A program made the translations under genes and the position numbers. The notes under the pieces were generated by a model. The model made no database searches. It worked only from the letters and a program-made list of their open reading frames with translations, and was not told the DNA's origin. From the IMG/VR virus record IMGVR_UViG_3300017987_000005, positions 119,649 to 183,648 of that record: a stretch of DNA of 64,000 nt; one strand, written 5' to 3'. This document shows positions 19,692-64,000 of the stretch, one piece after another (the stretch's first letter is position 1; each line of letters opens with the position of its first letter). Source of the DNA: a virus.

Positions 19692-22514
19692 TCAAATTAA
19701 GATTACTTGCTGATTGGCGTCGATTTTGCTTCTTTTCTGCTCTCCATCAATCGAGCCGTCCTTATCCTGGTACTGCTCCGGATGCATCTTCCTCAGATTC
19801 GGAGAGCCAGCAAACATTTCAAAATATCTCCAGTTAAGCATAGCACACATCAGAGCATCAGGTCCGTGGTCATCCTTTTTTATCGGCTTACCGTTTCCGT
19901 CAGCACGGTATCTCCTCAACTGAGAAAGTAACTGGTCATTACCTTCTCCGTCTTTAAGAAATTGAAGACGTCCGGTAGTAAGGAACTTCGATACGTTTTG
20001 TATTCCGAACTCTTTCCATTTCTTAAAAACAACAGGAATTACTTTGAACCCTTCTTCATGCAGCTCGCGATTACTGAACTGGTCCGATGAGTCGGCAAAC
20101 ACTACAAAGTTACCGTACTCTTCTCTAAGTTTATTCAGGTATCCGATAATCTCCCCGATTTTTTGCTCATGAAACCATGCTGTCTCGAGAACTCCGACAC
20201 CTATCTCACTTCGAACAGTCATGCATATTGCCGTCTGTCCTACATAACCCCAGTCCAGTCCTACTGATTTCTCAATCTCTTCATACCATGTAATATCTTC
20301 CCACTCCGATTCCGCTAAAGCTTCAATGTCATAAATGCTTCCGTAAAATTTCGGGCGCTCGCATTCAAACTCGACTGTATAAACGCTCGAACCCTCATTT
20401 ACTTTTTTAATATCACATACAGCTTCAAACGACTGGTAACCTTCTGCTTTCCGCGCAGTTCCGTTGCATCCTTTTACGGTCGTTCCGATTACGCGTCCGC
20501 GCTCATCGTGTTCATTCACTACCTCAGACAAATAACAGTCGGCGCAGTCGATATCAAGTTCACACTTGACCATCGTGTCGTACACAGACCATTTATATCT
20601 AGTAAATCCATGAGTCTCTGCGTCGTCCCAATACTCCTGGAAAAATCCTTCAGGATGATGAAACGTACTGAGTATGAGGATAAGATGTTCCGGCTGAGTA
20701 AGTGCGTTCTGGAGAGCTGTTTTCATCACTTCGCCGGCTTTCAAGTCTTCCTGACAGTTATGCACAACAGCATTCATCATCATAAATGATTCACCGTCTT
20801 TGACTTCTATATCCCACACTTCTCCGGAATAATGCCTAGACTCTACGCTTTTAACAGGGACAGCAATATAATTATCAATCTCCACCCATGAATTAAAAGC
20901 CTTCTGCTTTCTATCAGAATCATCGGTATCTGTAAATAAGCTCATTGCCTTTCCATTTATATCAATAACCCATGATTCTTTAGTACAGTACTCTTTACCA
21001 CGTATATTAGATATTTTCGCCGGACGCTCTCTATAAGAAGCAGCTACTCCAAGTTTAGCCAGACATGTAAATATAGAAGCTGCCAGGGCTTCTGATGAGG
21101 TCTGTATCGAGGCTCTTTTGCAAACTCCTCCTGAAGAGGCTTTCCCTTCCCATACGGTTCCATCGGAAGCTATAAGTCCGCTTATAACTCCACGGACAAA
21201 ATCTTTAGATTGCCCAGCTATAAAGTCAAAAGGCATTCCTTTTTCTGTAGACTTTGTTCCGAAAGTAGTATCGAGAAAATCTGCTAATTCCTTATGAGTA
21301 AATAAGGCAGTATCAGTATTAATTCTATTCTCAACTGACGAATTATCAAAGCAAACCTCACGCCCAAACAAATCTTTACTTATTGATACATATTCATCTA
21401 TATTACGCTTATCTTTAGAATTGAATACGACATAAATTCCTCTTGAACGCTGTTTACCGGTCCAGCCGTCCCCCAACCAATATCCAAGCCACTTCCCTCC
21501 GTCGTATGTATCAGCGAGTATACAATCATCTATATCGCTCGTCTTTATTTTTGGAATGAGGACATAATCTCTATCACTTATATCTTCGGCGTGAACCCAC
21601 TCAGCACTAGACTCGTTAACAGAATCTTTTCTTTTTGGATTTCCTTTATCGAGTCCTCGAATTATCTTTACTCTGTGGTCATGAGTCAACTCTAATCCTG
21701 TAGACCATCCATTAAGTGATATATTTACTACTCGATTATCCCAATCCTTGCTCCATACATTCTTAACAGAAGTTATAATTCCATCTTGATTGACTACACA
21801 ATCTCCTGGAACAACATCTTCCACGTTAATAATCCCACGCTCTGTAATTACTTTCGAACCTGGGAGTAAACACCCCTCATCAATAATAAGACCGGAATCG
21901 TGACGACTCCGGACCTGCTTATCGGTCGCATTGATACAATGGAGCTTTGCTCCATTATAAAAATGCGTTCTGGATATCAAAGGGTCACCATCTATAAGAT
22001 ACTGATAAACCTGGGGGTTACAACTACAAAACTCGACAACTTTTTCATAAATTGAACGAGCCTGACTACCAGAACCAGCAAGGTTGGTGAACTCTTTTGA
22101 CTTGTAAACCATCATCAAAAAGATGAGTACTGCGGCTGATGTGCTTCCTCCTCCGCCGCGAGATTTCCAGAGGATAGCTTTATTAACACGTTCGTAAAAA
22201 ATGTCAGCGATAAGACGACGTGCTTCAGGGACTAGTTTAATGTATTGGCGTTTTCCATCTTTGACTAAATAAAGTGTTGACGATACAAAATCATAGATGG
22301 CTTGCTGTTGTCTAAGTGCGTGTTCTTTATCTGACTCGGTGTGTCGTTTGTTAACGAGTTCTTCGCCGAGCAAGTCGGCAAATCCATGCTCCAGGGGTGA
22401 GCGCACTTTCTTTATTTCAAGAAGACGGCTCTCCATGACACGCAGAGCTTCTAGCGCATCACTTTTTTCCGCTGACCCATGAAGGGACTCAATTGTTGAA
22501 GTTTTGTCCGGCAC
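19692..22514 (-). CDS. terL: Terminase large subunit interrupted by an intein
   Basis: The spliced extein is about 570 aa. Residues AILWKSRGGGGST form the ATP-binding loop in the variant form with the lysine at its N-terminal end, and SGLIIDEG is Walker B. The C-terminal nuclease shows SVGLDWGYVG, VVFADSSDQF and DDHGPDALMCAML, the acidic RNase-H-like triad. A Cys-rich insert (CADC...C) lies before the nuclease. A 372-residue intein follows the Walker B glycine. The start is taken as GTG 22514, about ten bases after GGGGAG; the TTG at 22523 is too close to it. It pumps DNA into the prohead. Confidence 0.9.
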   Translation of the reverse strand: MPDKTSTIESLHGSAEKSDALEALRVMESRLLEIKKVRSPLEHGFADLLGEELVNKRHTESDKEHALRQQQAIYDFVSSTLYLVKDGKRQYIKLVPEARRLIADIFYERVNKAILWKSRGGGGSTSAAVLIFLMMVYKSKEFTNLAGSGSQARSIYEKVVEFCSCNPQVYQYLIDGDPLISRTHFYNGAKLHCINATDKQVRSRHDSGLIIDEGCLLPGSKVITERGIINVEDVVPGDCVVNQDGIITSVKNVWSKDWDNRVVNISLNGWSTGLELTHDHRVKIIRGLDKGNPKRKDSVNESSAEWVHAEDISDRDYVLIPKIKTSDIDDCILADTYDGGKWLGYWLGDGWTGKQRSRGIYVVFNSKDKRNIDEYVSISKDLFGREVCFDNSSVENRINTDTALFTHKELADFLDTTFGTKSTEKGMPFDFIAGQSKDFVRGVISGLIASDGTVWEGKASSGGVCKRASIQTSSEALAASIFTCLAKLGVAASYRERPAKISNIRGKEYCTKESWVIDINGKAMSLFTDTDDSDRKQKAFNSWVEIDNYIAVPVKSVESRHYSGEVWDIEVKDGESFMMMNAVVHNCQEDLKAGEVMKTALQNALTQPEHLILILSTFHHPEGFFQEYWDDAETHGFTRYKWSVYDTMVKCELDIDCADCYLSEVVNEHDERGRVIGTTVKGCNGTARKAEGYQSFEAVCDIKKVNEGSSVYTVEFECERPKFYGSIYDIEALAESEWEDITWYEEIEKSVGLDWGYVGQTAICMTVRSEIGVGVLETAWFHEQKIGEIIGYLNKLREEYGNFVVFADSSDQFSNRELHEEGFKVIPVVFKKWKEFGIQNVSKFLTTGRLQFLKDGEGNDQLLSQLRRYRADGNGKPIKKDDHGPDALMCAMLNWRYFEMFAGSPNLRKMHPEQYQDKDGSIDGEQKRSKIDANQQVILI
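20757..21872 (-). mobile_element. LAGLIDADG intein inside the terminase ATPase domain
   Basis: The intein begins with Cys (CLLPGSKVITERG, block A), has a block-B-like THDHRV, and ends VVHN followed by Cys of the C-extein, so the splice residues Cys1, penultimate His, terminal Asn and +1 Cys are all present. Between them are two LAGLIDADG motifs (WLGYWLGDGW and VISGLIASDG), meaning an endonuclease able to copy itself into intein-free alleles. Insertion is exactly after IIDEG, the Walker B motif, a highly conserved site that inteins favour. It is 372 residues long, the usual size for an endonuclease-bearing intein. Confidence 0.9.
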
Positions 22515-23040
22515 CCTCGTCAAACTCCCCGCTCGTTATACGTTGAACCAATCTATCTCTTTGAGATAGCAGTTCAGCCTCGGACATCTCTTGGACTTCC
22601 TTCGCTATAACTTCAATCTTCGAGCGGGAAGCTGCTCGTGGCATCAACCCCACATCCAACTTGAATGCGGCGAGGTCCTTCTGAACTTTATGAAATAATT
22701 CTAAGTAACGCTGCTTATCAATATCCTTCTTAGCAGCAGTATAATTCATCCATAGTTCAGACATGGTTGCTTGCATTCGTTCACACGTTTCAAAAATTTG
22801 AACGTCAACATCACCATGTCCATGCTTCTTAGCCATGTGCTCGCGAATGTATTTCAAATCACTACCCACTGTGTTGTAGTGGCAGGTCACGACGTTCGCG
22901 ATTGCTCTTTGTGACATGTTACGCATATAATACAATTCGAAGACTGTTTCTCTGCGTAACTGAATTTTTTTCTGCTCGGGGGACATTACGGCGTCGGCTT
23001 TTTCATCAAACCAAGCACCATCTTTGTCTTTTTCTGCCAC
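22489..23040 (-). CDS. Terminase small subunit-like HTH protein
   Basis: The 183-aa protein has an N-terminal helix-turn-helix (FELYYMRNMSQRAIANVVTC..NTVGSDLKYIR) followed by long charged helices suited to oligomer formation. Its position directly upstream of the large terminase, overlapping it by about 26 bp, makes it the likely DNA-recognition subunit. It is the first gene after the consensus promoter at 23092-23120, so it may head the structural transcript. Confidence 0.65.
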   Translation of the reverse strand: MAEKDKDGAWFDEKADAVMSPEQKKIQLRRETVFELYYMRNMSQRAIANVVTCHYNTVGSDLKYIREHMAKKHGHGDVDVQIFETCERMQATMSELWMNYTAAKKDIDKQRYLELFHKVQKDLAAFKLDVGLMPRAASRSKIEVIAKEVQEMSEAELLSQRDRLVQRITSGEFDEGAGQNFNN

Positions 23041-25722: not shown

Positions 25723-25869
25723 CTAATCCTTGACGTCCCACATAACGTCTTCGATATCTTCCTCGACAGCTTCAACGTTAATGTCGTCGTCCTTTCCATA
25801 CGCTCCCGATTCGACCTTGTCAAGAATTTCCCTGAGCCCCTCAGCTAACGTTTTCTGTAATCCGCCCAT
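25723..25869 (-). CDS. 48-aa acidic protein coupled to pncB
   Basis: A short frame whose ATG (25869) overlaps the TGA of pncB as TGATG. It encodes a 48-aa helical, acidic protein (MGGLQKTLAEGLREILDKVE, then an Asp/Glu/Ile/Val-rich end) and stops two bases before the next gene's start. Codon use looks coding and it fills an otherwise empty 148-bp gap. No function can be given. Confidence 0.5.
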   Translation of the reverse strand: MGGLQKTLAEGLREILDKVESGAYGKDDDINVEAVEEDIEDVMWDVKD

Positions 25870-27047
25870 CATATCACTTTCTTCAAATAGTCCACATAAT
25901 CCTTATCCCGACACATCTCCTTCCCCGTAGAATCGGACAGCTTTGCTACAGGCTGAAGATTCTCGGGGTCTCTGCCGGCTTCAATAACTTTCATTACAAT
26001 CTGAATCGGTTCTGGCCCGAGGTTGTTTGTCAAATGAGTCCCAACTCCATAAGCATCTTTTATACGTCCCCGGACATAGGTATGAATCTTGGCAACATTC
26101 TTGAAATCCAATCCATCACTGAATACAGCGCTCTTCGTTGTGGGGTCGATTCCCATATCTTCGTAATGACGGATGACTTTCTCTACCCAGTCAGTTGGGC
26201 TCCCGGAATCCTGACGAACTCCATCGAACAGCTTTGCAAAATACATGTCGAAGTCTTTGAGGAATTTCTGCAATCCTAGGGTGTCCGACAAAGCAATCCC
26301 CAGGTCGCCACGATACTCGTCAGCCCACGTCTGGAGCGCGTACCGCTGGCTCCATTCCGGCTTCGTCAATGCTTGGCATACTTGGAATACTTCATGCGCC
26401 ATCGTTCCGATAGGCTTAAGTCCGTACTCCTTTGCAAATAGGACGTTACTCGTCCCAATAAATCCGGGGAATATCTCAGGCTGAGTCAGCAACTTTATAA
26501 CGCGCGCATGCCATTCCGGAGAGAATGCGCGTCGCGTTCCGAAATCAGCAAAACTGACTCCCTTCATCGTCTGTATGTTCGATAGACTGGCTGACAGCTT
26601 CTTCTCCCCCTCCTTAAATAACTCGTTGCGGTCTTTAGAAGAACAAAGGTTGTCAAAATATAACGCATTAACTGTACGTAGAATATAAATCTCATACAAA
26701 ATAGTCTGCACCCACGGCCCTTCGACAATAATGCTGAGTCCTTCCGAATCAGAATCGCTGATGTGTACATATCTTGAATGAAGCTTGAACGTTCTGAGGA
26801 AATCAATAAAATCGCGCTTCATAAATCTCAGGTCACGGAGATACATCAACTCATCTTCCTTGAAGCTCAGACGATTCATGTAATTTATCTCGTCCTGTAT
26901 CCGGGCTTTAATAGGAGAAAAATCCACTCCCTCAGTCCGGCACTTAAACGCATACTTCACGTATACGTCAGGGCACTGATGCAAAGCAAACTGCATCATT
27001 GTGAGTTTATATAAATCGGTATCTAGTAAACTACGTATCACTGGCAT
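25869..27047 (-). CDS. pncB: Nicotinate phosphoribosyltransferase
   Basis: The 392-aa protein opens SLLDTDLYKLTMMQFALHQ, the family hallmark, followed by YAFKCRTEGVDF, GPWVQTILYEIYILRTVNAL, and FADFGTRRAFSPEWH containing the catalytic-region histidine. LFDGVRQDSGSP and the C-terminal YGVGTHLTNNL form the phosphoribosyl-binding parts. It makes nicotinate mononucleotide from nicotinate and PRPP. Length equals bacterial PncB. With pncA (30.3 kb) and nadE (29.5 kb) it covers three of the four steps from nicotinamide to NAD. Confidence 0.92.
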   Translation of the reverse strand: MPVIRSLLDTDLYKLTMMQFALHQCPDVYVKYAFKCRTEGVDFSPIKARIQDEINYMNRLSFKEDELMYLRDLRFMKRDFIDFLRTFKLHSRYVHISDSDSEGLSIIVEGPWVQTILYEIYILRTVNALYFDNLCSSKDRNELFKEGEKKLSASLSNIQTMKGVSFADFGTRRAFSPEWHARVIKLLTQPEIFPGFIGTSNVLFAKEYGLKPIGTMAHEVFQVCQALTKPEWSQRYALQTWADEYRGDLGIALSDTLGLQKFLKDFDMYFAKLFDGVRQDSGSPTDWVEKVIRHYEDMGIDPTTKSAVFSDGLDFKNVAKIHTYVRGRIKDAYGVGTHLTNNLGPEPIQIVMKVIEAGRDPENLQPVAKLSDSTGKEMCRDKDYVDYLKKVI

Positions 27048-50236: not shown

Positions 50237-50740
50237 TTACCATGATTTCCCCAACAATATATTGCTAATCGCCTGCCGCGTAACTCCGAACATAACAGCA
50301 ACCTCACGTTGGGGCTTTGTTCTCCCTATTTTACGAATCTCATTAACATCATTTTCAGATAACTTACTATTAAAATTCAACTCTCCTTTCTGCGGAGGGC
50401 ATATCGGAGCAGTGTAAGTCCCATGAATTATCGAATCACGTATATTCTCACTATGCGTTCCCCACGTCAGATTGGTCAGCCGATTATTCTGTTGGTTTCC
50501 GTCCAAATGCCTTGCTTCCATTCCATCTGGACACGTGCCAATAAATGTCTCTAGCACTAGTCTGTGAACTTCTTTTGAGTATAGTCTTCCTCTTGCACAC
50601 AACCCTACTTTTAGATACCCGTTAGCTCCGGCATTCTGCGCTAGTATAAGTGTCCTCCCAAACTTCTGCGACCTTACCCGCCCAAAGCTACTTACACAAT
50701 AATACTCAAAATCACTAACAGTTTTCCATACTTCTTCCAT
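50237..50740 (-). CDS. NUMOD4/HNH homing endonuclease
   Basis: 167 aa. EEVWKTVSDFEYYCVSSFG at the N-terminus is NUMOD4-like; VHRLVLETFIGTCPDGMEAR with HLDGNQQNNRLTNLTWG is the HNH_3 core; an HTH follows (REVAVMFGVTRQAISNILLG). It lies 30 bp downstream of the tmRNA gene, a typical site for homing endonucleases. Confidence 0.8.
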   Translation of the reverse strand: MEEVWKTVSDFEYYCVSSFGRVRSQKFGRTLILAQNAGANGYLKVGLCARGRLYSKEVHRLVLETFIGTCPDGMEARHLDGNQQNNRLTNLTWGTHSENIRDSIIHGTYTAPICPPQKGELNFNSKLSENDVNEIRKIGRTKPQREVAVMFGVTRQAISNILLGKSW

Positions 50741-50770
50741 ATACTAACTCTTAAAAAGAGATTGTCACCT

Positions 50771-51127
50771 TGGAGGTGGGGGGAATTGCACCCCCGTCCT
50801 GTAATGCCTCATGCATCGCGTCTACAATCATAGCCAGCGAGCGTCGTAATTTAGAAGCTAGTAACTTGTCTGGCTCATTCCTAGCGTTCGAGTCTTCGTT
50901 GGTTTCTCTGCTCTCAGACGGTAAAGACTTCCTCTTCCGAGCACAGCCGATACATTTACGTCCCTCGCTATAATATCGGCGTCATGCAGCAGGGACGGGT
51001 GCGTTTAAGCAGCCATTTTTACTGGTTTTGCATTTATCATGCTTGAGTGGATTGATGACGGGGCCAACCACTCATCCCCGGATTGCAGCTTAACAGTCTA
51101 ACATCCAGTCAAGCCTAAATCACCCCC
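50771..51127 (-). ncRNA. ssrA: tmRNA (ssrA)
   Basis: 357 nt. The 5' end GGGGGTG pairs with the 3' strand CACCTCC, followed by a T-arm (GGGGG, 7-nt loop, CCCCC), the tRNA-like end of tmRNA. Inside is a short frame GCA AAA CCA GTA AAA ATG GCT GCT TAA (51031-51005) that would give the tag AKPVKMAA, ending in the hydrophobic-Ala-Ala expected for ClpXP recognition. After the discriminator A comes AGG, not CCA. It rescues stalled ribosomes and tags unfinished proteins. Confidence 0.8.
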
Positions 51128-51128
51128 A

Positions 51129-51141
51129 TTTTCAAAGAACA
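51129..51141 (-). promoter_or_regulatory. boxA-like antitermination element
   Basis: TGTTCTTTGAAAA on the minus strand, directly 5' of the tmRNA. It matches boxA of bacterial stable-RNA operons (TGYTCTTTGAAAA), the NusB-S10 binding site. Confidence 0.6.
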
Positions 51142-51650
51142 AAATATGGCAGAGGGATGAAGCTTTATACTACGGTAATCCGCACGTCACTTTCTCATCC
51201 TTCGAATGACGATTGCTCAACAATGCGCAAACACAAAGTCTCTACCAAAACGGGAACGTCCGCAGCGAGAGGGATTCTAACCCCCATCTGTCCTTTTGCC
51301 AGCTTTCATGGCTCGGCGCATCACTCCGCCCGTAAATAAATCGTGCTCCGCACACTTCCACTACGAGCCGCTCCCTAGCGGTATATCATAAGTGGCAAGG
51401 CAAGGAATACGGTACGCTATTTTCAGACGCGCGTTCGCCGATATACTAACACGCCCTACTTTTACGTGCCGGCACCTTGCATGGCAACAATGTTAACCGT
51501 GTCCATCCAGTAAACGTTCATTGCTTCAACGATTCCCTCACTTGTAGCAAGGTTCACTCCACTCCAGCTCACTGGTTAAATGGGCAATCAATAATTCCCA
51601 CCCCGGTAAGAAGTTTTTCCGTTCTGAAACTCCAAAACACTCGCCACTAA

Positions 51651-51663
51651 ATTTCAAAGAACA
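51651..51663 (-). promoter_or_regulatory. boxA-like antitermination element
   Basis: TGTTCTTTGAAAT on the minus strand inside the structured 51.1-52.0 kb region. Confidence 0.55.
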
Positions 51664-52014
51664 AATCAGCAAGTCAGCTACGCTCCCCGTTGACAATGTA
51701 GCTGAGCCCTCACTCGGAACCCCGTTGGGCAGCAATCTTTGAATCGCACTGCTGCGAGTGTTTCGCATCTTGCTAATAATATCTGGTAGGAAGAAGGTTA
51801 TATCCGGTATCAGCTAGCTCCTTTTGCACTCCACGGTTACAGTACGCAAAGTTAAGCATGCACGAAGACGCACGCTCGCGACTCCATCCCTCCACGCACT
51901 ATAAACGCTTCCCCGGAAACTCCCTATGTGTTATAAAAGAACGTACCGCTGATTTGACCAGGCTGGCTCAGCGGGCGAAGCCTCGGTAAGTCCGACTACC
52001 ACTGGTAGCGGGTC

Positions 52015-52203
52015 CTATTTATCAACTAACAAACTTATTAAACTAAGGTTATTTTTTATCCGCTCTAACACGACAATATTAAAACAATGAGAATGGTATG
52101 CCTTCTGACGATAACAAGGATTTTCAGGGGCATACTTATCTACTTCAGAAACCATAGGCTCTCCTGCTTTAATACCATTAAAGCATTTAGCACACTTAAC
52201 CAT
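52015..52203 (-). CDS. Small zinc-binding protein
   Basis: 62 aa; VKCAKCFNGIKAGEPMVSEV with a later CYRQ...HSHC suggests a LIM-like zinc site. Its stop borders the structured non-coding region. Function unknown. Confidence 0.5.
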   Translation of the reverse strand: MVKCAKCFNGIKAGEPMVSEVDKYAPENPCYRQKAYHSHCFNIVVLERIKNNLSLISLLVDK

Positions 52204-58542: not shown

Positions 58543-58617
58543 TGGTATCCCCGGATGGAATCGAACCATCATCTAAAGCTTAGGAGGCTTTCGTAATATC
58601 CATTATACTACGGGAAC
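58543..58617 (-). tRNA. tRNA-Arg(CCU)
   Basis: Anticodon loop CTCCTAA in stem AAAGC/GCTTT. Normal D and T arms, CCA encoded. Reads AGG. Lowest-coordinate tRNA of the array. Confidence 0.85.
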
Positions 58618-58618
58618 A

Positions 58619-58693
58619 TGGTACTCCCTGAAGGAATCGAACCCTCATCATCAGCTTAGAAGGCTGTTGCACTTTCCGTTGTGCTAAGGGAGC
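58619..58693 (-). tRNA. tRNA-Arg(UCU)
   Basis: Anticodon loop CTTCTAA in stem CAGC/GCTG. CCA encoded. Reads AGA. Confidence 0.85.
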
Positions 58694-58694
58694 A

Positions 58695-58772
58695 TGGTGG
58701 ACGGGGTTGGATTTGAACCAACGACTCCTGCATTTTCAGTGCAGAGCTACTACCTGGCTGAGCTACCCGTCC
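58695..58772 (-). tRNA. tRNA-Phe(GAA)
   Basis: Acceptor GGACGGG/CCCGTCC, loop CTGAAAA, CCA encoded. Its 5' end overlaps the 3' end of the 154-aa gene by 10 bp. Confidence 0.88.
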
Positions 58773-59227
58773 TCTTCATTTCTATCTTCCTCATGGTCAT
58801 TATCGGTCTGCACAGTGCATCCCAACTTATTAACCTCGTCACACACATCTTTAAGAAATTCTCTCGTACCGTCACTGGCGTATGACTCCCATCCTTTTTC
58901 GTAATCCCTCGGATTAATCCATCCGAATATGCTGAAATCCTGGACGTATTCGAGTCTCTTAAATCCGCGTTCCTCAAACTCATTAATAAATCTTCGGTCG
59001 GTAACAACTTCTGACGAACGCACAGTCGGTTGACGATGCTTGCGCTCACTACTACTATAAAGTCTGTAATGACGCGCGATAGCTTCCTCTTCAAGAAGGC
59101 TATATATTCGAGCGAAGACTTCTACAGAAATCTTATAGAACTCATCATAGCTGAGTCGCTCTTCGTGCGTCACAATTACACAGCTACTATCTTCAGGAGA
59201 ACCGTAACCAAAACGATAACAATACAT
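58763..59227 (-). CDS. Unknown protein between tRNAs
   Basis: 154 aa. Acidic; helical (SYDEFYKISVEVFARIYSLL) then DFSIFGWINPRDYEKG and an acidic tail. The 3' end overlaps tRNA-Phe by 10 bp. Function unknown. Confidence 0.5.
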   Translation of the reverse strand: MYCYRFGYGSPEDSSCVIVTHEERLSYDEFYKISVEVFARIYSLLEEEAIARHYRLYSSSERKHRQPTVRSSEVVTDRRFINEFEERGFKRLEYVQDFSIFGWINPRDYEKGWESYASDGTREFLKDVCDEVNKLGCTVQTDNDHEEDRNEEDG

Positions 59228-59244
59228 GCATCTCCTTTTCTATC

Positions 59245-59319
59245 TGGTAGGCGCGGGAAGAGTTGAACTTCCGTTAGAAGTTTATAAGACTTCCGTTCTT
59301 ACCGTTGAACTACGCGCCA
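59245..59319 (-). tRNA. tRNA-Ile(UAU)
   Basis: Anticodon loop CTTATAA in stem GAAGT/ACTTC, reading the rare codon AUA. CCA encoded. The first acceptor pair is U1-U72, a mismatch; the other six pairs are normal. Confidence 0.75.
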
Positions 59320-59555
59320 GCTAAAGGTATAAGCTTATCCTCAGCGACAAGCAAATAACAACGATTTCCATCATCCATCTTAAAAGTACAAGGCCACGAA
59401 ACTCCCCAATGAGACGCACTCCACGACTCACGTGGTTCGTCTTTAATGGTCAGGTCTTCATAATCACGTTCTACATGCTTGACCTTCTGACCTATTCGGA
59501 AATCCTTTTTGACTCGAAATGTCCCGCATAATTTTCCAACAAACGACTCACCCAT
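59310..59555 (-). CDS. Unknown small protein
   Basis: 81 aa with AAGGAGCGGG before the ATG. Beta-rich (GVSWPCTFKMDDGNRCYLLV). Its 3' end overlaps tRNA-Ile by 10 bp, as the previous gene overlaps tRNA-Phe. Function unknown. Confidence 0.5.
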   Translation of the reverse strand: MGESFVGKLCGTFRVKKDFRIGQKVKHVERDYEDLTIKDEPRESWSASHWGVSWPCTFKMDDGNRCYLLVAEDKLIPLAGA

Positions 59556-59574
59556 AACCCGCTCCTTTAATATC

Positions 59575-59652
59575 TGGTGGGCCCACAGGGATTTGAACCC
59601 CGGACACGCGCATTATGAGTGCGACGCTCTAACCAGACTGAGCTATGGGCCC
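59575..59652 (-). tRNA. tRNA with CAU anticodon (Met or Ile2)
   Basis: Acceptor GGGCCCA/TGGGCCC, loop CTCATAA, standard 5-nt variable loop, CCA encoded. Elongator Met and lysidine-modified Ile cannot be separated by eye. Confidence 0.8.
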
Positions 59653-59664
59653 GTGATAAATAAA

Positions 59665-59743
59665 TGGTCCTGCGAGGAGGATTTGAACCTCCGACCTCCT
59701 CCTTATCAGGGAGGCGCTACTAACCGGGCTGAGCTACCGCAGG
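59665..59743 (-). tRNA. tRNA-Ile(GAU)
   Basis: Anticodon loop CTGATAA in stem CCTCC/GGAGG, CCA encoded. Reads AUC/AUU. Confidence 0.85.
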
Positions 59744-59746
59744 ATA

Positions 59747-59820
59747 TGGTTGCCCTACAGGGATTTGAACCCCAACTAATTGATTCAGAGTCAATCGTGC
59801 TACCGTTACACTATAGGGCA
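59747..59820 (-). tRNA. tRNA-Gln(CUG)
   Basis: Acceptor TGCCCTA/TAGGGCA, loop CTCTGAA, CCA encoded. Reads CAG. Confidence 0.85.
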
Positions 59821-59827
59821 AAATACA

Positions 59828-59849
59828 GGGTTGCTGCAAAGCGCAACCC
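59828..59849 (-). other. Short hairpin between tRNAs
   Basis: GGGTTGC (59828-59834) and its complement (59843-59849) form a 7-bp stem just upstream (5') of tRNA-Gln; only TGTATTTT follows. May mark a processing site or weak terminator. The rest of the 80-bp spacer to tRNA-Val shows nothing. Confidence 0.35.
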
Positions 59850-59899
59850 CAACTCCTTCTGCTCTTACATCAAAAATAAATGGCAGATGAGATAATATA

Positions 59900-59975
59900 T
59901 GGTGGGCGCGAGAGGATTCGAACCTCCGACTTCTTGCTTGTAAGGCAAGCGCTCTAGCCGCTGAACTACGCGCCC
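59900..59975 (-). tRNA. tRNA-Val(UAC)
   Basis: Acceptor GGGCGCG/CGCGCCC, loop CTTACAA, CCA encoded. Confidence 0.88.
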
Positions 59976-59977
59976 AA

Positions 59978-60055
59978 TGGCGAGGGTGACGGGACTCGAA
60001 CCCGCAAACTTCCTGCTCGACAGGCAGGTGCTCTACGCTATTGAACTACACCCCC
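59978..60055 (-). tRNA. tRNA-Asp(GUC)
   Basis: Acceptor GGGGGTG/CACCCTC, loop CTGTCGA, discriminator G, CCA encoded. Confidence 0.85.
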
Positions 60056-60065
60056 GTGTAATAAC

Positions 60066-60276
60066 TGGTGAGCATGACGGGATTCGAACCCGCACCGCAG
60101 CATTTAGGCCCAGCCGCTCATTAAGCTTTCCACTCTTTTCTCCCGTATATCCCTTCATCACTGCTTCCTCACCACAGAGCGAACTCTGGTCCCAGGTGTG
60201 ATAGACAGGTCAGCGAGCACTTACGGGTGCCTCGACAGGTCCACTTAAATCGTTCTACCAATTAAACTACATGCTC
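60066..60276 (-). tRNA. Oversized tRNA-like gene with a central insertion
   Basis: The 5' GAGCATG pairs perfectly with the 3' CATGCTC; a D-arm (GTTT/GAAC), a T-arm with TTCGAAT and an encoded CCA are present. But the total is 211 nt, about 135 nt more than a tRNA, with a strong CAGAG-TTCG-CTCTG hairpin in the extra part. A stem ATTTA/TAAAT can form where the anticodon stem should be. It could hold an intron or be a fusion of broken tRNAs; the anticodon is not determined. Confidence 0.5.
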
Positions 60277-60281
60277 AAACA

Positions 60282-60417
60282 TGGTCGCCAGCGGGGAGGT
60301 TCTCACTCCCATAGGCGGCTAACTCCTATTCAATCTCGATTCGAATCACCCGCAGCCGACGCGGTACACTTCGAATCTACAGCAGGGAATCGGTCACCCT
60401 GCTTGGCATCGCTGGCA
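60282..60417 (-). tRNA. Oversized, degenerate tRNA-like sequence
   Basis: Both ends pair (GCCAGC with GCTGGC) and CCA can be read at the 3' end, with a T-arm-like GGGAG/CTCCC, but the T-loop is atypical and the 136-nt total includes a 7-bp hairpin (AGCAGGG/CCCTGCT) where the D-arm should be. No anticodon arm is clear. A boxA-like element lies directly upstream. It is a degenerate tRNA or another small RNA. Confidence 0.4.
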
Positions 60418-60422
60418 TATAA

Positions 60423-60434
60423 TTTTCAAAGAAC
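60423..60434 (-). promoter_or_regulatory. boxA-like element
   Basis: GTTCTTTGAAAA on the minus strand, between tRNA-Gln(UUG) and the 136-nt tRNA-like sequence. Confidence 0.5.
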
Positions 60435-60511
60435 TGGTTACCCCGGAAGGATTTGAACCTTCAACAGCGACATTCAAAGTGTCGTGCTCTAGCCAATTGA
60501 GCTACGGGGTA
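60435..60511 (-). tRNA. tRNA-Gln(UUG)
   Basis: Acceptor TACCCCG/CGGGGTA, loop CTTTGAA in stem CGACA/TGTCG, CCA encoded. Confidence 0.85.
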
Positions 60512-60533
60512 TTATATATTTACGAAAGAACAA

Positions 60534-60549
60534 CTGCAAACGATTGCAA
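60534..60549. repeat. TTGCAA-type motif, copy 4
   Basis: CTGCAAACGATTGCAA, the fourth copy of the motif, in the spacer between tRNA-Gln and tRNA-Lys(CUU), one mismatch in one half site. Confidence 0.45.
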
Positions 60550-60554
60550 AAAAA

Positions 60555-60629
60555 TGGTGGGCCGAGAAGGGGTCGAACCTTCAACCTTCGGATTAAGAGT
60601 CCGCTGCTCTGCCATTGAGCTACCGGCCC
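60555..60629 (-). tRNA. tRNA-Lys(CUU)
   Basis: Acceptor GGGCCGG/TCGGCCC, loop CTCTTAA, CCA encoded. Reads AAG. Confidence 0.85.
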
Positions 60630-60630
60630 T

Positions 60631-60661
60631 TGGTGTGCTGAGAGAGATTCGAACTCAGTCG
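60631..60661 (-). pseudogene. 3' tRNA fragment overlapping the HNH gene end
   Basis: A 3' tRNA end only: GAG-TTCGAAT-CTC T-arm-like, then CAGCACA and CCA. It overlaps the stop codon of the HNH gene at 60655. No matching 5' half with a good acceptor complement is present. It is probably the remnant of a tRNA gene broken by insertion of the endonuclease gene. Confidence 0.55.
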
Positions 60662-61059
60662 TCCCAATGAATAATCCTGTGACAGTTAGAGCAAACTACA
60701 TCGCACTTAGCTATCTCAGCGTCAATTCTTTCAAACGACCAACATCTCGCAACAGCTAACGACAATTCCGAATCTTTGTCCCCGGACTCGCGATGATGAA
60801 AATCCAAACATCTTGGGTCACTCATCCCGCACACTACACAAGGATGGCTGCTCTTATAATCAAACAAGTACTTCCTACGAATAGCTCTATTATCGCGATT
60901 AGTCTTAACACGCTTAGCTCTATCCCTACGGTAATACTTCTTAGAGTATTCAGCCATACACTCCTTACATCTCGTCTGGAGTCCGTCGGCCTGCTTACTA
61001 TTTTTAGAGAACAAAGATACGTCTTTACGCTTTCCACACTTTCCGCATAACTTATCCAT
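60655..61059 (-). CDS. HNH endonuclease inserted in the tRNA array
   Basis: 134 aa. N-terminal zinc ribbon (LCGKCGKRKDV, CKECMAEYSKKYYRRD) and an HNH core PCVVCGMSDPRCLDFHHRES...CDVVCSNCHRIIHW with the H-N-H residues and zinc cysteines. It has its own promoter and lies between an intact tRNA-Lys(UUU) and a 3' tRNA fragment. Likely a homing endonuclease. Confidence 0.8.
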   Translation of the reverse strand: MDKLCGKCGKRKDVSLFSKNSKQADGLQTRCKECMAEYSKKYYRRDRAKRVKTNRDNRAIRRKYLFDYKSSHPCVVCGMSDPRCLDFHHRESGDKDSELSLAVARCWSFERIDAEIAKCDVVCSNCHRIIHWDD

Positions 61060-61086
61060 AGCGATTCCTTAATTATAGTCATCCCT

Positions 61087-61114
61087 ATAGTAGCACTTTT
61101 AATCACTATGTCAA
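61087..61114 (-). promoter_or_regulatory. Promoter of the HNH gene, TTGACA-16-TACTAT
   Basis: TTGACA at 61114-61109 and TACTAT at 61092-61087 on the minus strand. The same pair with the same spacing precedes the HTH gene at 62437, and differs from the TATAAT promoters elsewhere. Confidence 0.65.
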
Positions 61115-61125
61115 ATTAAAAATAA

Positions 61126-61202
61126 TGGTGGGACCGGTGGAAGTCGAATCCACAACCCCCGGATTAAAAGTCCGGTGCTCTATCCAGTTGAGCTACGGCC
61201 CC
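61126..61202 (-). tRNA. tRNA-Lys(UUU)
   Basis: Acceptor GGGGCCG/CGGTCCC, loop CTTTTAA in stem CCGGA/TCCGG, CCA encoded. Intact, located between a broken 5' tRNA fragment and the HNH gene. Confidence 0.88.
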
Positions 61203-61208
61203 GTATCA

Positions 61209-61262
61209 AGGCTGCAACTCACACTGAAAAGTGCGGTACTCTATCCGTTGAGTTACCAGCCC
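61209..61262 (-). pseudogene. 5' fragment of a tRNA-Lys-like gene
   Basis: GGGCTGG (acceptor 5' strand), a D-arm (ACTC/GAGT), then CCGCA and CTTTT, a Lys(UUU)-type start of the anticodon loop. After that the sequence no longer pairs; no T-arm or 3' acceptor exists nearby. It is a broken tRNA gene of the same identity as the intact tRNA-Lys(UUU) next to it. Confidence 0.6.
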
Positions 61263-61264
61263 GT

Positions 61265-61608
61265 CTACTTACGTTTTCGCTTTCGTTTGTCCACTATATC
61301 TATTCCTTTATAATCTTCTAAATACCACTTAATAACAGTCATAACTACGTTCCGAAATTCCACTCCCCACACATCGCAAATACTCTCATGCAATCGGGTC
61401 AGTATCGTCTTCGGCTTCCATCCATGCTTCAGCGAATCCTCTACTAAATCAATCCAATCTGGCAACCAGTTGCGTTGATGTAGATTATGGAAAATTACGC
61501 CAAAGGCAATCCGTGCCTATCAAAGAGCTTGAAGACTCCCTTCACAACGAGCTTCCCTTCCGGAGTCTTCCCTGAAAAAGAAAGCTTCAACTTCTTCTTA
61601 CGTCCCAT
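61265..61608 (-). pseudogene. Frameshifted small gene between tRNAs
   Basis: An ATG at 61608 with AAGGAG opens a 37-codon frame (MGRKKKLKLSFSGKTPEGKL, then VFKLFDRHGLPLA) that stops at 61495. The frame at -1 is open past it and continues as FGVIFHNLHQRN, LPDWIDLVEDSLKHGWKP, to a stop at 61265. The two parts read as one protein across GGATTGCCTTTGGCG, but no canonical slippery site is there. It is either a frameshift mutation or a non-canonical programmed shift. Alone, the second part lacks a good start (only TTG at 61465). Confidence 0.55.
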
Positions 61609-61625
61609 GACGTCTCCTTATATAT

Positions 61626-61702
61626 TGGGGTGAGCGACGGGGGTCGAACCCGTACCTTCAGGGCCACAACCTGACATGCAGAGCCGCTACACTACGCCCA
61701 CC
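61626..61702 (-). tRNA. tRNA-His(GUG)
   Basis: Loop TTGTGGC, discriminator C, and the extra G at -1 that pairs with C73 is encoded at 61702. CCA encoded. Confidence 0.88.
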
Positions 61703-61712
61703 GTGTAAATCA

Positions 61713-61754
61713 TGGAGCGGGTATGGAGATTCAAACTCCACCTTCTAGCCTGGG
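61713..61754 (-). tRNA. 3' half of a split tRNA-Gly(CCC)
   Basis: CCCAG, then GCTAG (anticodon stem), variable bases AAGG, T-arm TGGAG/CTCCA with loop TTTGAAT, acceptor TACCCGC, discriminator U and CCA. It matches the 5' half at 62618-62651 base for base (7/7 acceptor and 5/5 anticodon-stem pairs). Joined length is 76 nt. Confidence 0.75.
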
Positions 61755-61759
61755 ATGAA

Positions 61760-62437
61760 TCACATAACCCACTCTTCTTTTTCAAATCCTACAAACTCCT
61801 GAATAGCGCCATATAATTTTTGAATAACTTCCGTACAACAAACTGAAACATTACACAATCCATAAACATTTGATTTTCTTTTATGCTTAGAACTACTCGG
61901 ATATCTATCAACTTGCGGCTTCGTAAAATTATCAATAGATATACCTAAAAGCTCTGACCAATATTGTTCAATGTCACTGACAGTCAGCCCCTTATCAGTA
62001 TAACAAACAACATATGCTCGCATCTTATCACTAGAAACATTAAAGAACTTACGCAAAAACTTAACATAAAATAACATCATATTCTCGTCCATATTTGAAA
62101 ACTTAGCTTGGTTTCGCAACGTCTTACTTCCTTCTGCCCAATATAACATGCACCCTGCTATGAATTCAGGGTCTCGTTCCCGAGCAAGCTCTCTTCCATC
62201 ATTTTGCCACTGCTCTCTAAGCTTACGATAATATTTTTTCCTACGCTGCCCTTCAGCATATGGACCTTTTCTCGAATTATCGTAGATAATTTTCTCCTGC
62301 TCAGCAGTAAGCTGTATATCACGAACCCACACACTAACCGTCCCTTTGCTTACGCCAAGCTTATCAGCAATAACTGATAAAGGAAGTCCATCCTCCTTGC
62401 GCATCCTACGGGCTTCTTTACGCTCTTTAGCTTTCAT
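61760..62437 (-). CDS. HTH protein with LAGLIDADG-like motif, inside a split tRNA-Gly
   Basis: 225 aa. N-terminal HTH (SVIADKLGVSKGTVSVWVRD), a basic linker, then FIAGCMLYWAEGSKT, resembling a single LAGLIDADG-type helix, and a C-terminal half with VYGLCNVSVCCTEVIQ. It has its own promoter at 62478-62505 and sits within the intervening DNA of a split tRNA-Gly. It may be a homing endonuclease or a mobility protein; nuclease activity is inference. Confidence 0.6.
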   Translation of the reverse strand: MKAKERKEARRMRKEDGLPLSVIADKLGVSKGTVSVWVRDIQLTAEQEKIIYDNSRKGPYAEGQRRKKYYRKLREQWQNDGRELARERDPEFIAGCMLYWAEGSKTLRNQAKFSNMDENMMLFYVKFLRKFFNVSSDKMRAYVVCYTDKGLTVSDIEQYWSELLGISIDNFTKPQVDRYPSSSKHKRKSNVYGLCNVSVCCTEVIQKLYGAIQEFVGFEKEEWVM

Positions 62438-62452
62438 AATAACTCCTTAAAT

Positions 62453-62495
62453 AGAACTCACGTATATATACATATATATAGTAGACATAAGTTCT
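62453..62495. repeat. Inverted repeat around the HTH gene promoter
   Basis: AGAACT (62453-62458) and AGTTCT (62490-62495) flank an AT-rich stretch with the -10 box. A possible autoregulation site for the HTH protein. Confidence 0.4.
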
Positions 62496-62505
62496 AAAAT
62501 GTCAA
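62478..62505 (-). promoter_or_regulatory. Promoter of the HTH gene, TTGACA-16-TACTAT
   Basis: TTGACA at 62505-62500 and TACTAT at 62483-62478 on the minus strand, same architecture as the HNH gene promoter at 61087-61114. Confidence 0.65.
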
Positions 62506-62522
62506 CTAAAAAGCGAAAAAAG

Positions 62523-62596
62523 AGCGAGAGGCGGGCCTCGAACCCGCAACCTTTTGCCTGGGAAGCAAATGCTCTGCCTATTTGAGCTACTCCCGC
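62523..62596 (-). tRNA. tRNA-Gly(CCC), intact copy inside the split gene
   Basis: Acceptor GCGGGAG/CTCTCGC, loop TTCCCAG in stem TTTGC/GCAAA, discriminator U. CCA is not encoded (CT follows). Reads GGG. It lies within the 863-bp insert that splits another tRNA-Gly(CCC). Confidence 0.85.
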
Positions 62597-62617
62597 ATTA
62601 TATCAAAAGTGTCAATG

Positions 62618-62651
62618 AAGCTAGCGTGCTAATCGCTGACACTATACCCGC
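62618..62651 (-). tRNA. 5' half of a split tRNA-Gly(CCC)
   Basis: GCGGGTA, TA, D-arm GTGT/GCAC, then CTAGC and TT: exactly positions 1-33 of a tRNA. The remaining 42 nt of the same tRNA lie at 61713-61754. The break is between U33 and the first anticodon base. Confidence 0.75.
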
Positions 62652-62652
62652 A

Positions 62653-62728
62653 TGGAGTGAGCGACGGGGGTCGAACCCGCGACCATCAGATTGGAAATCT
62701 GAGACTCTACCAACTGAGTTACGCTCAC
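62653..62728 (-). tRNA. tRNA-Gly(UCC)
   Basis: Acceptor GTGAGCG/CGCTCAC, loop TTTCCAA in stem CAGA/TCTG, discriminator U, CCA encoded. Confidence 0.87.
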
Positions 62729-62740
62729 ATTCAAATCAAT

Positions 62741-62753
62741 TTTCAAAAGAACA
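62741..62753 (-). promoter_or_regulatory. boxA-like element, one extra T
   Basis: TGTTCTTTTGAAA on the minus strand, between tRNA-Gly(UCC) and tRNA-Thr(GGU). Confidence 0.45.
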
Positions 62754-62756
62754 ATA

Positions 62757-62832
62757 TGGAGCTGACGGCGGGAATCGAACCCGCGACCTCATCCTTACCA
62801 AGGATGTGCTCTACCGGCTGAGCTACGTCAGC
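62757..62832 (-). tRNA. tRNA-Thr(GGU)
   Basis: Acceptor GCTGACG/CGTCAGC, loop TTGGTAA, discriminator U, CCA encoded. Confidence 0.87.
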
Positions 62833-62839
62833 CTATTAA

Positions 62840-63036
62840 AATCCAGTTCCGTAAGCGGGATTCTGTTCTATCCTATCATTTATCTTTGCCACTACCATTC
62901 CTCATCGGGCTGCTCACCCCCTCGGATAATTCGTGTTGCTCCCTCGGTGGTGCAATCGAGTGCAAACTCTCCCACCTTAAGCAGCGGAGTCCCGACTTTC
63001 CTCAGACTTACGTCCGCGATAGGTCGAACTGGATAT
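62840..63036 (-). ncRNA. rnpB: RNase P RNA, miniature (rnpB)
   Basis: About 197 nt. P1 is a perfect 9-bp helix (ATCCAGTTC at 63034-63026, GAACTGGAT at 62849-62841). Downstream of its 5' strand lies GAGGAAAGTC (63003-62994), the conserved region I of bacterial RNase P RNA, and near the 3' end ACAGAATCCCGCTTA (62866-62852) is conserved region V; these form the catalytic P4 pairing. It lies between two tRNA-Thr genes. At half the usual length, several helices of the specificity domain must be missing. It would trim 5' leaders of the tRNA array. Confidence 0.82.
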
Positions 63037-63043
63037 CTATTTA

Positions 63044-63119
63044 TGGAGCCACGAGTCGGACTCGAACCGACAACCTGTTGATTACAAGTCAACTGCACTT
63101 CCAATTGTGCTACCGTGGC
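63044..63119 (-). tRNA. tRNA-Thr(UGU)
   Basis: Acceptor GCCACGG/TCGTGGC, loop CTTGTAA in stem GTTGA/TCAAC, CCA encoded. Confidence 0.87.
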
Positions 63120-63122
63120 ATA

Positions 63123-63200
63123 TGGAGCCGGCGGGGGGACTCGAACCCTCCAACTTCCGCATTACGAGTGCGGCGCTCTGCCAATTAAAGCTACGCCGGC
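63123..63200 (-). tRNA. tRNA-Thr(CGU)
   Basis: Acceptor GCCGGCG/CGCCGGC, loop CTCGTAA in stem CCGCA/TGCGG, CCA encoded. Confidence 0.87.
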
Positions 63201-63203
63201 TTA

Positions 63204-63279
63204 TCGGGCTGAATGGATTCGAACCATCGGTCTCGTGGCCCCCAGCCACGCGTCTTAAGCCAAGCTAGACTACAGCCCG
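63204..63279 (-). tRNA. tRNA-Pro(GGG), no encoded CCA
   Basis: Acceptor CGGGCTG/CAGCCCG, loop CTGGGGG in stem CGTGG/CCACG. Discriminator A then TAA, so CCA must be added. Reads CCC. Confidence 0.82.
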
Positions 63280-63287
63280 TTTATTTT

Positions 63288-63364
63288 TGGTCTGGATGAG
63301 AGGATTTGAACCTCCGACTTCGTGCTCCCAAGGCACGCGCCCTACCAAGCTGGGCTACATCCAG
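63288..63364 (-). tRNA. tRNA-Pro(UGG)
   Basis: Acceptor CTGGATG/CATCCAG, loop CTTGGGA in stem CGTGC/GCACG, CCA encoded. Confidence 0.87.
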
Positions 63365-63367
63365 ATA

Positions 63368-63441
63368 TGGAGCGGGTACCGAGAATCGAACTCGGATTTC
63401 CTCCTCGGCAGGGAGGTACATTACCATTATGTTACACCCGC
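63368..63441 (-). tRNA. tRNA-Gly(GCC)
   Basis: Acceptor GCGGGTG/TACCCGC, loop CTGCCGA in stem CCTCC/GGAGG, discriminator U, CCA encoded. Confidence 0.87.
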
Positions 63442-63444
63442 TTA

Positions 63445-63521
63445 TGGTGGAGGCGACAGGATTCGAACCTGCGACAGTCTGCTTGCAAGGCAGATGCTCT
63501 CCCGGACTGAGCTACGCCCCC
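63445..63521 (-). tRNA. tRNA-Ala(UGC)
   Basis: Acceptor GGGGGCG/CGCCTCC, loop CTTGCAA in stem TCTGC/GCAGA, CCA encoded. G3 faces U70, the Ala identity pair. Confidence 0.88.
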
Positions 63522-63546
63522 AGTTTATAGGCATCCATATTTACAT

Positions 63547-63557
63547 TGTCAAAGAGC
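63547..63557 (-). promoter_or_regulatory. boxA-like element
   Basis: GCTCTTTGACA on the minus strand, the form known from enterobacterial rRNA leaders (TGCTCTTTGACA), between tRNA-CAU and tRNA-Ala. Confidence 0.55.
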
Positions 63558-63569
63558 TATAAAATATAT

Positions 63570-63646
63570 TGGTAGCTGAGGGGGGACTCGAACCCCCGGT
63601 CTCTGCCTTATGAGAGCAGCGCTTTAGCCAGCTAAGCTACTCAGCC
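63570..63646 (-). tRNA. tRNA with CAU anticodon (Met or Ile2)
   Basis: Acceptor GGCTGAG/CTCAGCT, loop CTCATAA in stem CTGCT/GGCAG, CCA encoded, normal variable loop. Identity not separable by eye. Confidence 0.8.
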
Positions 63647-63655
63647 ATTTATTCC

Positions 63656-63741
63656 TGGTGCTTCCGGGGAGATTCGAACTCCCACCCCATCGCTGAGACA
63701 TGGACCTGAACCATGCGTGTCTGCCGTTCCACCACGGAAGC
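63656..63741 (-). tRNA. tRNA-Leu(CAG)
   Basis: Class II with long variable arm. Acceptor GCTTCCG/CGGAAGC, loop TTCAGGT in stem CATGG/CCATG, CCA encoded. Confidence 0.87.
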
Positions 63742-63742
63742 A

Positions 63743-63818
63743 TGGTACGCGGGAAGAGATTTGAACTCTTACTGTACAGGTTCTAAGCCTGGCGCCTCTG
63801 CCGTTGGGCTACCCGCGC
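63743..63818 (-). tRNA. tRNA with UAG anticodon on a class I body
   Basis: Acceptor GCGCGGG/CCCGCGT, loop CTTAGAA, variable loop only 5 nt, T-arm AAGAG/CTCTT, CCA encoded. UAG reads the Leu codon CUA, but bacterial tRNA-Leu always has a long variable arm, as the two Leu tRNAs on either side do. Its first anticodon-stem pair is also mismatched. Confidence 0.7.
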
Positions 63819-63821
63819 ATA

Positions 63822-63910
63822 TGGTGTCCTTGGAGGGATTCGAACCCTCACCACGCGATTATGCGGACTAGGCCCTCAACCTAGCGTGTCTGCCATTCCA
63901 CCACAAGGAC
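63822..63910 (-). tRNA. tRNA-Leu(GAG)
   Basis: Class II with long variable arm. Acceptor GTCCTTG/CAAGGAC, loop TTGAGGG in stem CTAGG/CCTAG, CCA encoded. Confidence 0.87.
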
Positions 63911-63920
63911 AAATCTCTAT

Positions 63921-63932
63921 ATTTCAAAGAGC
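63921..63932 (-). promoter_or_regulatory. boxA-like element
   Basis: GCTCTTTGAAAT on the minus strand, between tRNA-Pro(CGG) and tRNA-Leu(GAG). Confidence 0.5.
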
Positions 63933-63938
63933 GATATT

Positions 63939-64000
63939 TGGTCGGGGTGAGAAGATTCGAACTTCCGACCTCAGCGTCCCGAACGCTGCGCGCTAGCCAA
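63939..64000 (-). tRNA. tRNA-Pro(CGG), 5' end outside the window
   Basis: The 3' part of the gene: loop TTCGGGA in stem CAGCG/CGCTG, T-arm with TTCGAAT, acceptor CACCCCG, CCA encoded. The array evidently continues beyond the window. Confidence 0.8.

Follow-up and report, generated by a model that had tools for sequence, protein, structure and literature searches.

A divergent one-piece tmRNA gene with boxA-like sequences and a large stable RNA gene set in a contractile-tailed phage

The stretch of viral DNA analyzed here (the window; 64,000 nucleotides, positions 119649-183648 of the 183,648-base IMG/VR record IMGVR_UViG_3300017987_000005) encodes, at positions 50771-51127 of the minus strand, a tmRNA, an RNA that rescues stalled ribosomes. 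The gene is 357 nt long and has the standard one-piece form. The Rfam covariance model RF00023 matched the minus strand at window positions 50770-51127 with a score of 100.8 bits (E 3.4e-38), above the curated cut-off of 47 bits and over the entire model (positions 1-374 of 374); because the discriminator A is at 50771 and the last matched base lies outside the molecule, the ends 50771-51127 are exact. No other full-length tmRNA above this cut-off was found in the whole record. The acceptor stem, in which the 5' strand GGGGGUG (51121-51127) pairs with CACCUCC (50772-50778), has 7 of 7 pairs, G3-U70 included, according to the sequence and the model alignment. The T-arm placed by the same alignment (50779-50795, minus strand; loop UGCAAUU) has all 5 base pairs of its stem. 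The tag frame, read directly at the place given by the model, starts with the resume codon GCA at 51031 and runs through eight codons to the stop UAA (51031-51005, minus strand), spelling AKPVKMAA. The initial annotation, made from the letters alone, had proposed a phage tmRNA at this position on the basis of the tail-end pairing, the T-arm and this 8-codon frame, and the covariance search that it called for bears the proposal out, as does the presence of the G3-U70 pair.

All four pseudoknots are present as well. Their stems, which lie outside the nested model (CGGGG/CCCCG, GCCGAUAU/GUAUCGGC, AGUCUUU/GAAGACU and AGCCAG/CUGGCU), comprise 5, 8, 7 and 6 bp and were equalled in 371, 36, 147 and 208 shuffles, respectively, per 5000 each; the combined p of 4e-4 is flattered because the segments were picked by eye around the expected stems. 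ARAGORN did not report the tmRNA gene at 50771-51127. We conclude that the phage carries a genuine tmRNA gene, a new, divergent member among the known phage tmRNAs.

The T-loop UGCAAUU, with G at position 55, might be taken for a sign of decay; this was rejected because UGCRA T-loops are found in tmRNA-type 3' ends of at least 119 loci in viruses and at least 118 in bacteria. Of the 119 listed viral loci, 94 had an ARAGORN tmRNA call, invariably of the permuted form; of the 118 listed bacterial loci, 85 had such a call, of the standard form in 83 cases. By these calls, a one-piece tmRNA with a UGCRA T-loop is thus usual in bacteria and unseen among the listed viral loci. Similarly, a base that appeared to be missing from the D-loop in the covariance alignment ceased to be missing upon comparison with planctomycete tmRNAs, in which the segment is of equal length, with a C-to-U change. 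The 3' end reads A73 and then AGG; CCA is not encoded, as the initial annotation had noted, unlike in 24 of the 27 tRNAs in the window. Among the listed UGCRA loci, CCA is encoded in 117 of 119 viral ones vs 66 of 118 bacterial ones. Given that 52 of the 118 listed bacterial loci with the same T-loop type lack CCA, and that tags of 2 amino acids exist although the commonest length is 10 amino acids (PMC11915505), neither the missing CCA nor the short tag is an oddity. Tags ending in MAA, which is a hydrophobic-Ala-Ala terminus, account for 3 of the 80 bacterial tags listed.

Close relatives of the gene were not found by DNA in 50,697 phage records, nor by neighbouring protein or tag sequence. 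The 5'-end pattern of the tmRNA retrieved three loci, all without any Rfam match; the sheath and one structural protein, used as queries, matched only 100%-identical contigs, and tmRNA is absent from the three records found via the sheath. One contig with a similar 3' end was rejected as a relative because its tmRNA is permuted. In this 173-kb viral contig (L095, positions 2610-4755), the permuted tmRNA directly follows a 591-aa ORF and precedes a tRNA-Trp. The best pairwise scores were a mixture of Elusimicrobia and Planctomycetales, and in the tree of 84 sequences, a sample made up only of tmRNAs with the same T-loop type, the phage gene is on a long branch and none of its neighbours is well supported. 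On these grounds, we dropped the assignment of a host from the tmRNA phylogeny.

The ends of the contig share an exact 123-bp direct overlap (record positions 1-123 are identical to window positions 63878-64000), and therefore the genome looks complete and circular, with a length of about 183.5 kb (about 183,525 bp). The virus-record listing for the IMG/VR entry states no end repeats. The presence of a tape measure, a sheath, a portal and a putative terminase identifies a contractile-tailed phage. At window positions 19692-22523 (minus strand), a weak match to the terminase large subunit contains LAGLIDADG and intein-splicing matches, probably representing an intein-bearing terminase. A tRNA array occupies window positions 58543-64000 (minus strand) and extends into the beginning of the record. 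According to ARAGORN, the window contains 27 tRNAs and the first 6 kb of the record contain 18 (one without a clear anticodon), the two sets together covering all 20 amino acids. Inside the array lies a compact, 200-nt RNase P RNA-like gene (62836-63035, minus strand), in which the conserved cores are kept and most of the specificity domain is missing. The tRNAs mentioned in the initial annotation are there, and its RNase P RNA survives as an RNase P RNA-like gene but not as a class A member, because the match to RF00010 (61 bits, E 3.7e-16) is below the curated cut-off of 100. A search of viral contigs with one sequence pattern yielded no compact RNase P RNA.

Also among the tRNA genes, the phage encodes a TROVE/Ro60 protein of 504 aa (record positions 2021-3535, minus strand; E 4.6e-34); the location of a Ro60 gene next to tRNAs in a phage suggests that there is a Y-like RNA in the vicinity. 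A stretch at window positions 60290-60423 (minus strand), flanked by tRNA-Gln(ttg) and tRNA-Asp and directly after one of the boxA-like sites described below, has no ARAGORN call; it can be closed by eye through GCCAGCG/CGCTGGC, has an end near CCA and an inner pairing GATTCGAA/TTCGAATC, and is possibly a Y-like or an aberrant tRNA-like RNA. Elsewhere in the window, a gene of the RlaP family (RNA repair pathway nucleotidyltransferase, PF10127; 41233-42117, minus strand; E 1.1e-15) may be part of the gene set for RNA upkeep, and another one (25869-27047, minus strand; E 2.5e-62) belongs to the nicotinate phosphoribosyltransferase family, which is found in other NAD-rebuilding phages.

The immediate neighbours of the tmRNA gene are a homing endonuclease gene and a long non-coding stretch. 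The NUMOD4-HNH gene (50237-50740; PF13392 and PF07463), which shows atypical codon use, is on the same strand and starts 30 bp past the tmRNA 3' end, the distance given for an HNH gene in the initial annotation. Upstream, the 0.87 kb between the tmRNA and a small ORF that ends at 52015 (51144-52014, minus strand) lacks any coding signal: the coding score is negative for each of the 10 open frames with at least 45 codons in 50741-52014 and positive for 9 of 10 held-out control genes, with the HNH gene as the exception. This stretch has no Rfam match and no second copy in the record; its best nhmmer E value against the fetched loci, 0.68, is not convincing, and its folding z of -1.4 falls between the extremes of 10 coding controls (-5.1 and +0.1). 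The reading as a large structured RNA was therefore not upheld. Its length alone is no argument either, because there are other non-coding stretches in the record. Either a long leader or an RNA of an unknown kind may be encoded here.

The leader of the tmRNA contains a boxA-like element, TTTGTTCTTTGAAA (51130-51143, minus strand), whose end is 3 nt from the start of the tmRNA; its 15-mer core recurs in an Elusimicrobiales spacer. A motif search of the window located a second exact copy of this 14-mer 522 nt upstream (51652-51665, minus strand) and, altogether, 2 exact and 3 two-mismatch matches vs 0.99 expected. The more general motif GYTCTTTGAMA occurs 10 times on the minus strand of the record and not on the plus strand, with 1 occurrence in the reversed control; one of these matches lies in the terminal overlap and hence appears at both ends, leaving 9 unique sites. 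Three of the sites on the minus strand of the tRNA array are directly after tRNA-Gln(ttg) (60424-60434) and in tRNA spacers (63547-63557 and 63922-63932, the latter being record positions 45-55 through the terminal overlap). In total, 6 of the 9 unique sites fall within 11.6 kb of stable RNA DNA (6% of the genome), compared to 3 in the remaining 172 kb (Fisher p 4.4e-6; we set the limits of the stable RNA DNA ourselves, adding the non-coding stretch to the regions with tRNA and tmRNA calls). Of those three, two are inside open reading frames and the third is at record position 70341. This last site, GCTCTTTGAAA, is located in an 860-bp region (record positions 69622-70481) that shows no coding signal by the coding score and no Rfam match at the gathering score.

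The boxA consensus of gammaproteobacterial rRNA operons, which is bound by NusB-S10, is GYTCTTTAANA (PMC5725501), and the phage motif GYTCTTTGAMA differs from it at one position (G for A). In 30 bacterial genomes, the 12-mer TGTTCTTTGAAA had 11 hits, about equal to the reversed control, and only 1 of the 11 is beside rRNA, the other 10 loci showing no rRNA. That one hit is in an Elusimicrobiales 16S-tRNA-tRNA-23S spacer, between the second tRNA and 23S, where a boxA is expected, and 15 nt are common to this 16S-23S spacer and the phage tmRNA leader. Given the background frequency of the 12-mer, the boxA reading draws on this single spacer, the published consensus and the enrichment in stable RNA DNA, from which we consider, with moderate confidence, that the phage motifs are boxA-like elements of the rRNA type.

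SmpB, the RNase P protein and the CCA-adding enzyme family had no match in the apparently complete phage genome, in searches that matched 10 of 14 control genomes for each of the three. Without a detectable SmpB of the phage, the tmRNA must use SmpB of the host, and without the other two proteins, the phage RNAs depend on host partners more broadly. That the phage supplies a tmRNA, an RNase P RNA and a tRNA set covering each amino acid, but neither SmpB nor the RNase P protein, shows where its own contribution ends and its reliance on the host begins.

Most probably, this is a functional one-piece tmRNA of a circular, contractile-tailed phage of ~183.5 kb, which rescues ribosomes in dependence on host SmpB and belongs to a boxA-antiterminated set of stable RNAs. 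The tmRNA would be transcribed from the minus strand behind the boxA-like leader, trimmed by RNase P (either the host enzyme or the phage RNA), provided with CCA by a host enzyme and charged by the host alanyl-tRNA synthetase through G3-U70. Together with host SmpB, it would then, in the infected cell, free ribosomes that have stalled on broken mRNAs and add AKPVKMAA, a tag whose MAA end resembles an ssrA degron. In the larger set, comprising tRNAs for 20 amino acids, the compact RNase P RNA-like gene, the Ro60 gene and the tmRNA, antitermination of the rRNA type, presumably through binding of NusB and S10 to the boxA-like elements, would shield the untranslated stable RNA transcripts from Rho. 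Against this explanation, we count the absence of a phage SmpB, which makes the function wholly host-dependent, as well as the absence of a close relative, the long branch, the missing CCA and, for the boxA part, the background frequency of the 12-mer in bacterial genomes.

A natural reading of the stable RNA set is insurance against the loss of host RNA, be it through phage-driven decay or through RNA-cutting defences of the host. The roles of the tRNA, RNase P RNA and Ro60 families fit such insurance, and it is on these roles that the protective function would be based. The suggestion in the initial annotation that the phage keeps translation going while host RNA decays appears reasonable, with the correction that host partners would be needed. 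More tentatively, the phage might run its stable RNAs in the manner of an rRNA operon, with the boxA-antiterminated tmRNA, the tRNAs for 20 amino acids, an RNase P ribozyme pared down largely to the catalytic domain and a further RNA of at most 0.87 kb next to the tmRNA allowing processing, decoding and rescue to continue despite the destruction of host RNA; we see this as a possibility, though hardly an even one.

Other explanations of the tmRNA appear less probable. The phage RNA could be a decoy that binds host SmpB, EF-Tu or AlaRS and thus lowers host trans-translation, as might be suggested by the lack of a phage SmpB, by the strong divergence from bacterial tmRNAs and by the precedent of DS6A, whose phage-encoded tmRNA relative lacks a tag frame and inhibits the endogenous tmRNA in E. 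coli (PMC11915505). However, the tag frame, the stop and the four pseudoknots, none of which a decoy needs, are all intact here, unlike the tag frame in DS6A, so we consider a decoy unlikely. Still less probable is a relic, that is, a decaying host ssrA acquired with an integration site or via the neighbouring NUMOD4-HNH homing endonuclease: that gene, with its atypical codon use, is indeed only 30 bp away, and ARAGORN fails on the tmRNA, but nothing is missing from the tmRNA gene, neither a helix nor the tag, where a relic so diverged should show some loss, and there is no integrase among the window proteins scanned. Finally, the proposal that the tmRNA mainly marks host proteins for breakdown, supplying amino acids to the phage, which has been put forward as an alternative for phage Melnitz (PMC9004378) and would accord with the MAA end of the tag, is the least likely of all because tmRNA acts on stalled ribosomes, with no known means of choosing host proteins, and the phage data contain no sign of such selection.

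Compared to bacterial ssrA (RF00023), the functional tmRNA that we favour agrees in the full-length fold, G3-U70, T-arm, resume codon, tag frame and four pseudoknots but differs in being encoded by a phage that lacks SmpB, in the 8-aa tag, in its long branch and in being missed by ARAGORN. Among phages, tmRNAs are known but uncommon, as the initial annotation had it: they were reported in 402 of 18,146 phage genomes (PMC9004378) and account for 79 of 97,179 unique tmRNA sequences (PMC11915505). The Streptomyces BE-cluster phages, Melnitz and the huge phages resemble the present case in that tailed phages encode a tmRNA, often beside many tRNAs. In contrast to the one-piece form here, the tmRNA of Melnitz is permuted and two-piece (PMC9004378), and so are 94 of the 94 listed viral tmRNAs with this T-loop that ARAGORN called; some of the huge phages with a tmRNA carry SmpB too (PMC7162821), whereas none was detected in this phage. 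Given that both phage surveys employed ARAGORN (PMC9004378, PMC7162821), which misses the tmRNA at 50771-51127, covariance models should find more phage tmRNAs.

Because phage tmRNAs are already known, the less ordinary features of this genome are the tRNAs for 20 amino acids, the shrunken RNase P RNA and the signals resembling those of ribosomal operons. Neither boxA in phage tRNA/tmRNA operons nor a phage-encoded RNase P RNA was found described in the accessible portions of the open-licence literature, and the boxA-like sequences by the tmRNA and in the stable RNA spacers are new here. As in rRNA operons, the motif is located in the leaders and spacers of stable RNAs that are not translated, but in the phage it lies beside tmRNA and tRNA genes, with one consensus position changed (G for A). 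If the boxA reading is true, the phage borrows the ribosomal antitermination of its host for its own tRNA and tmRNA genes.
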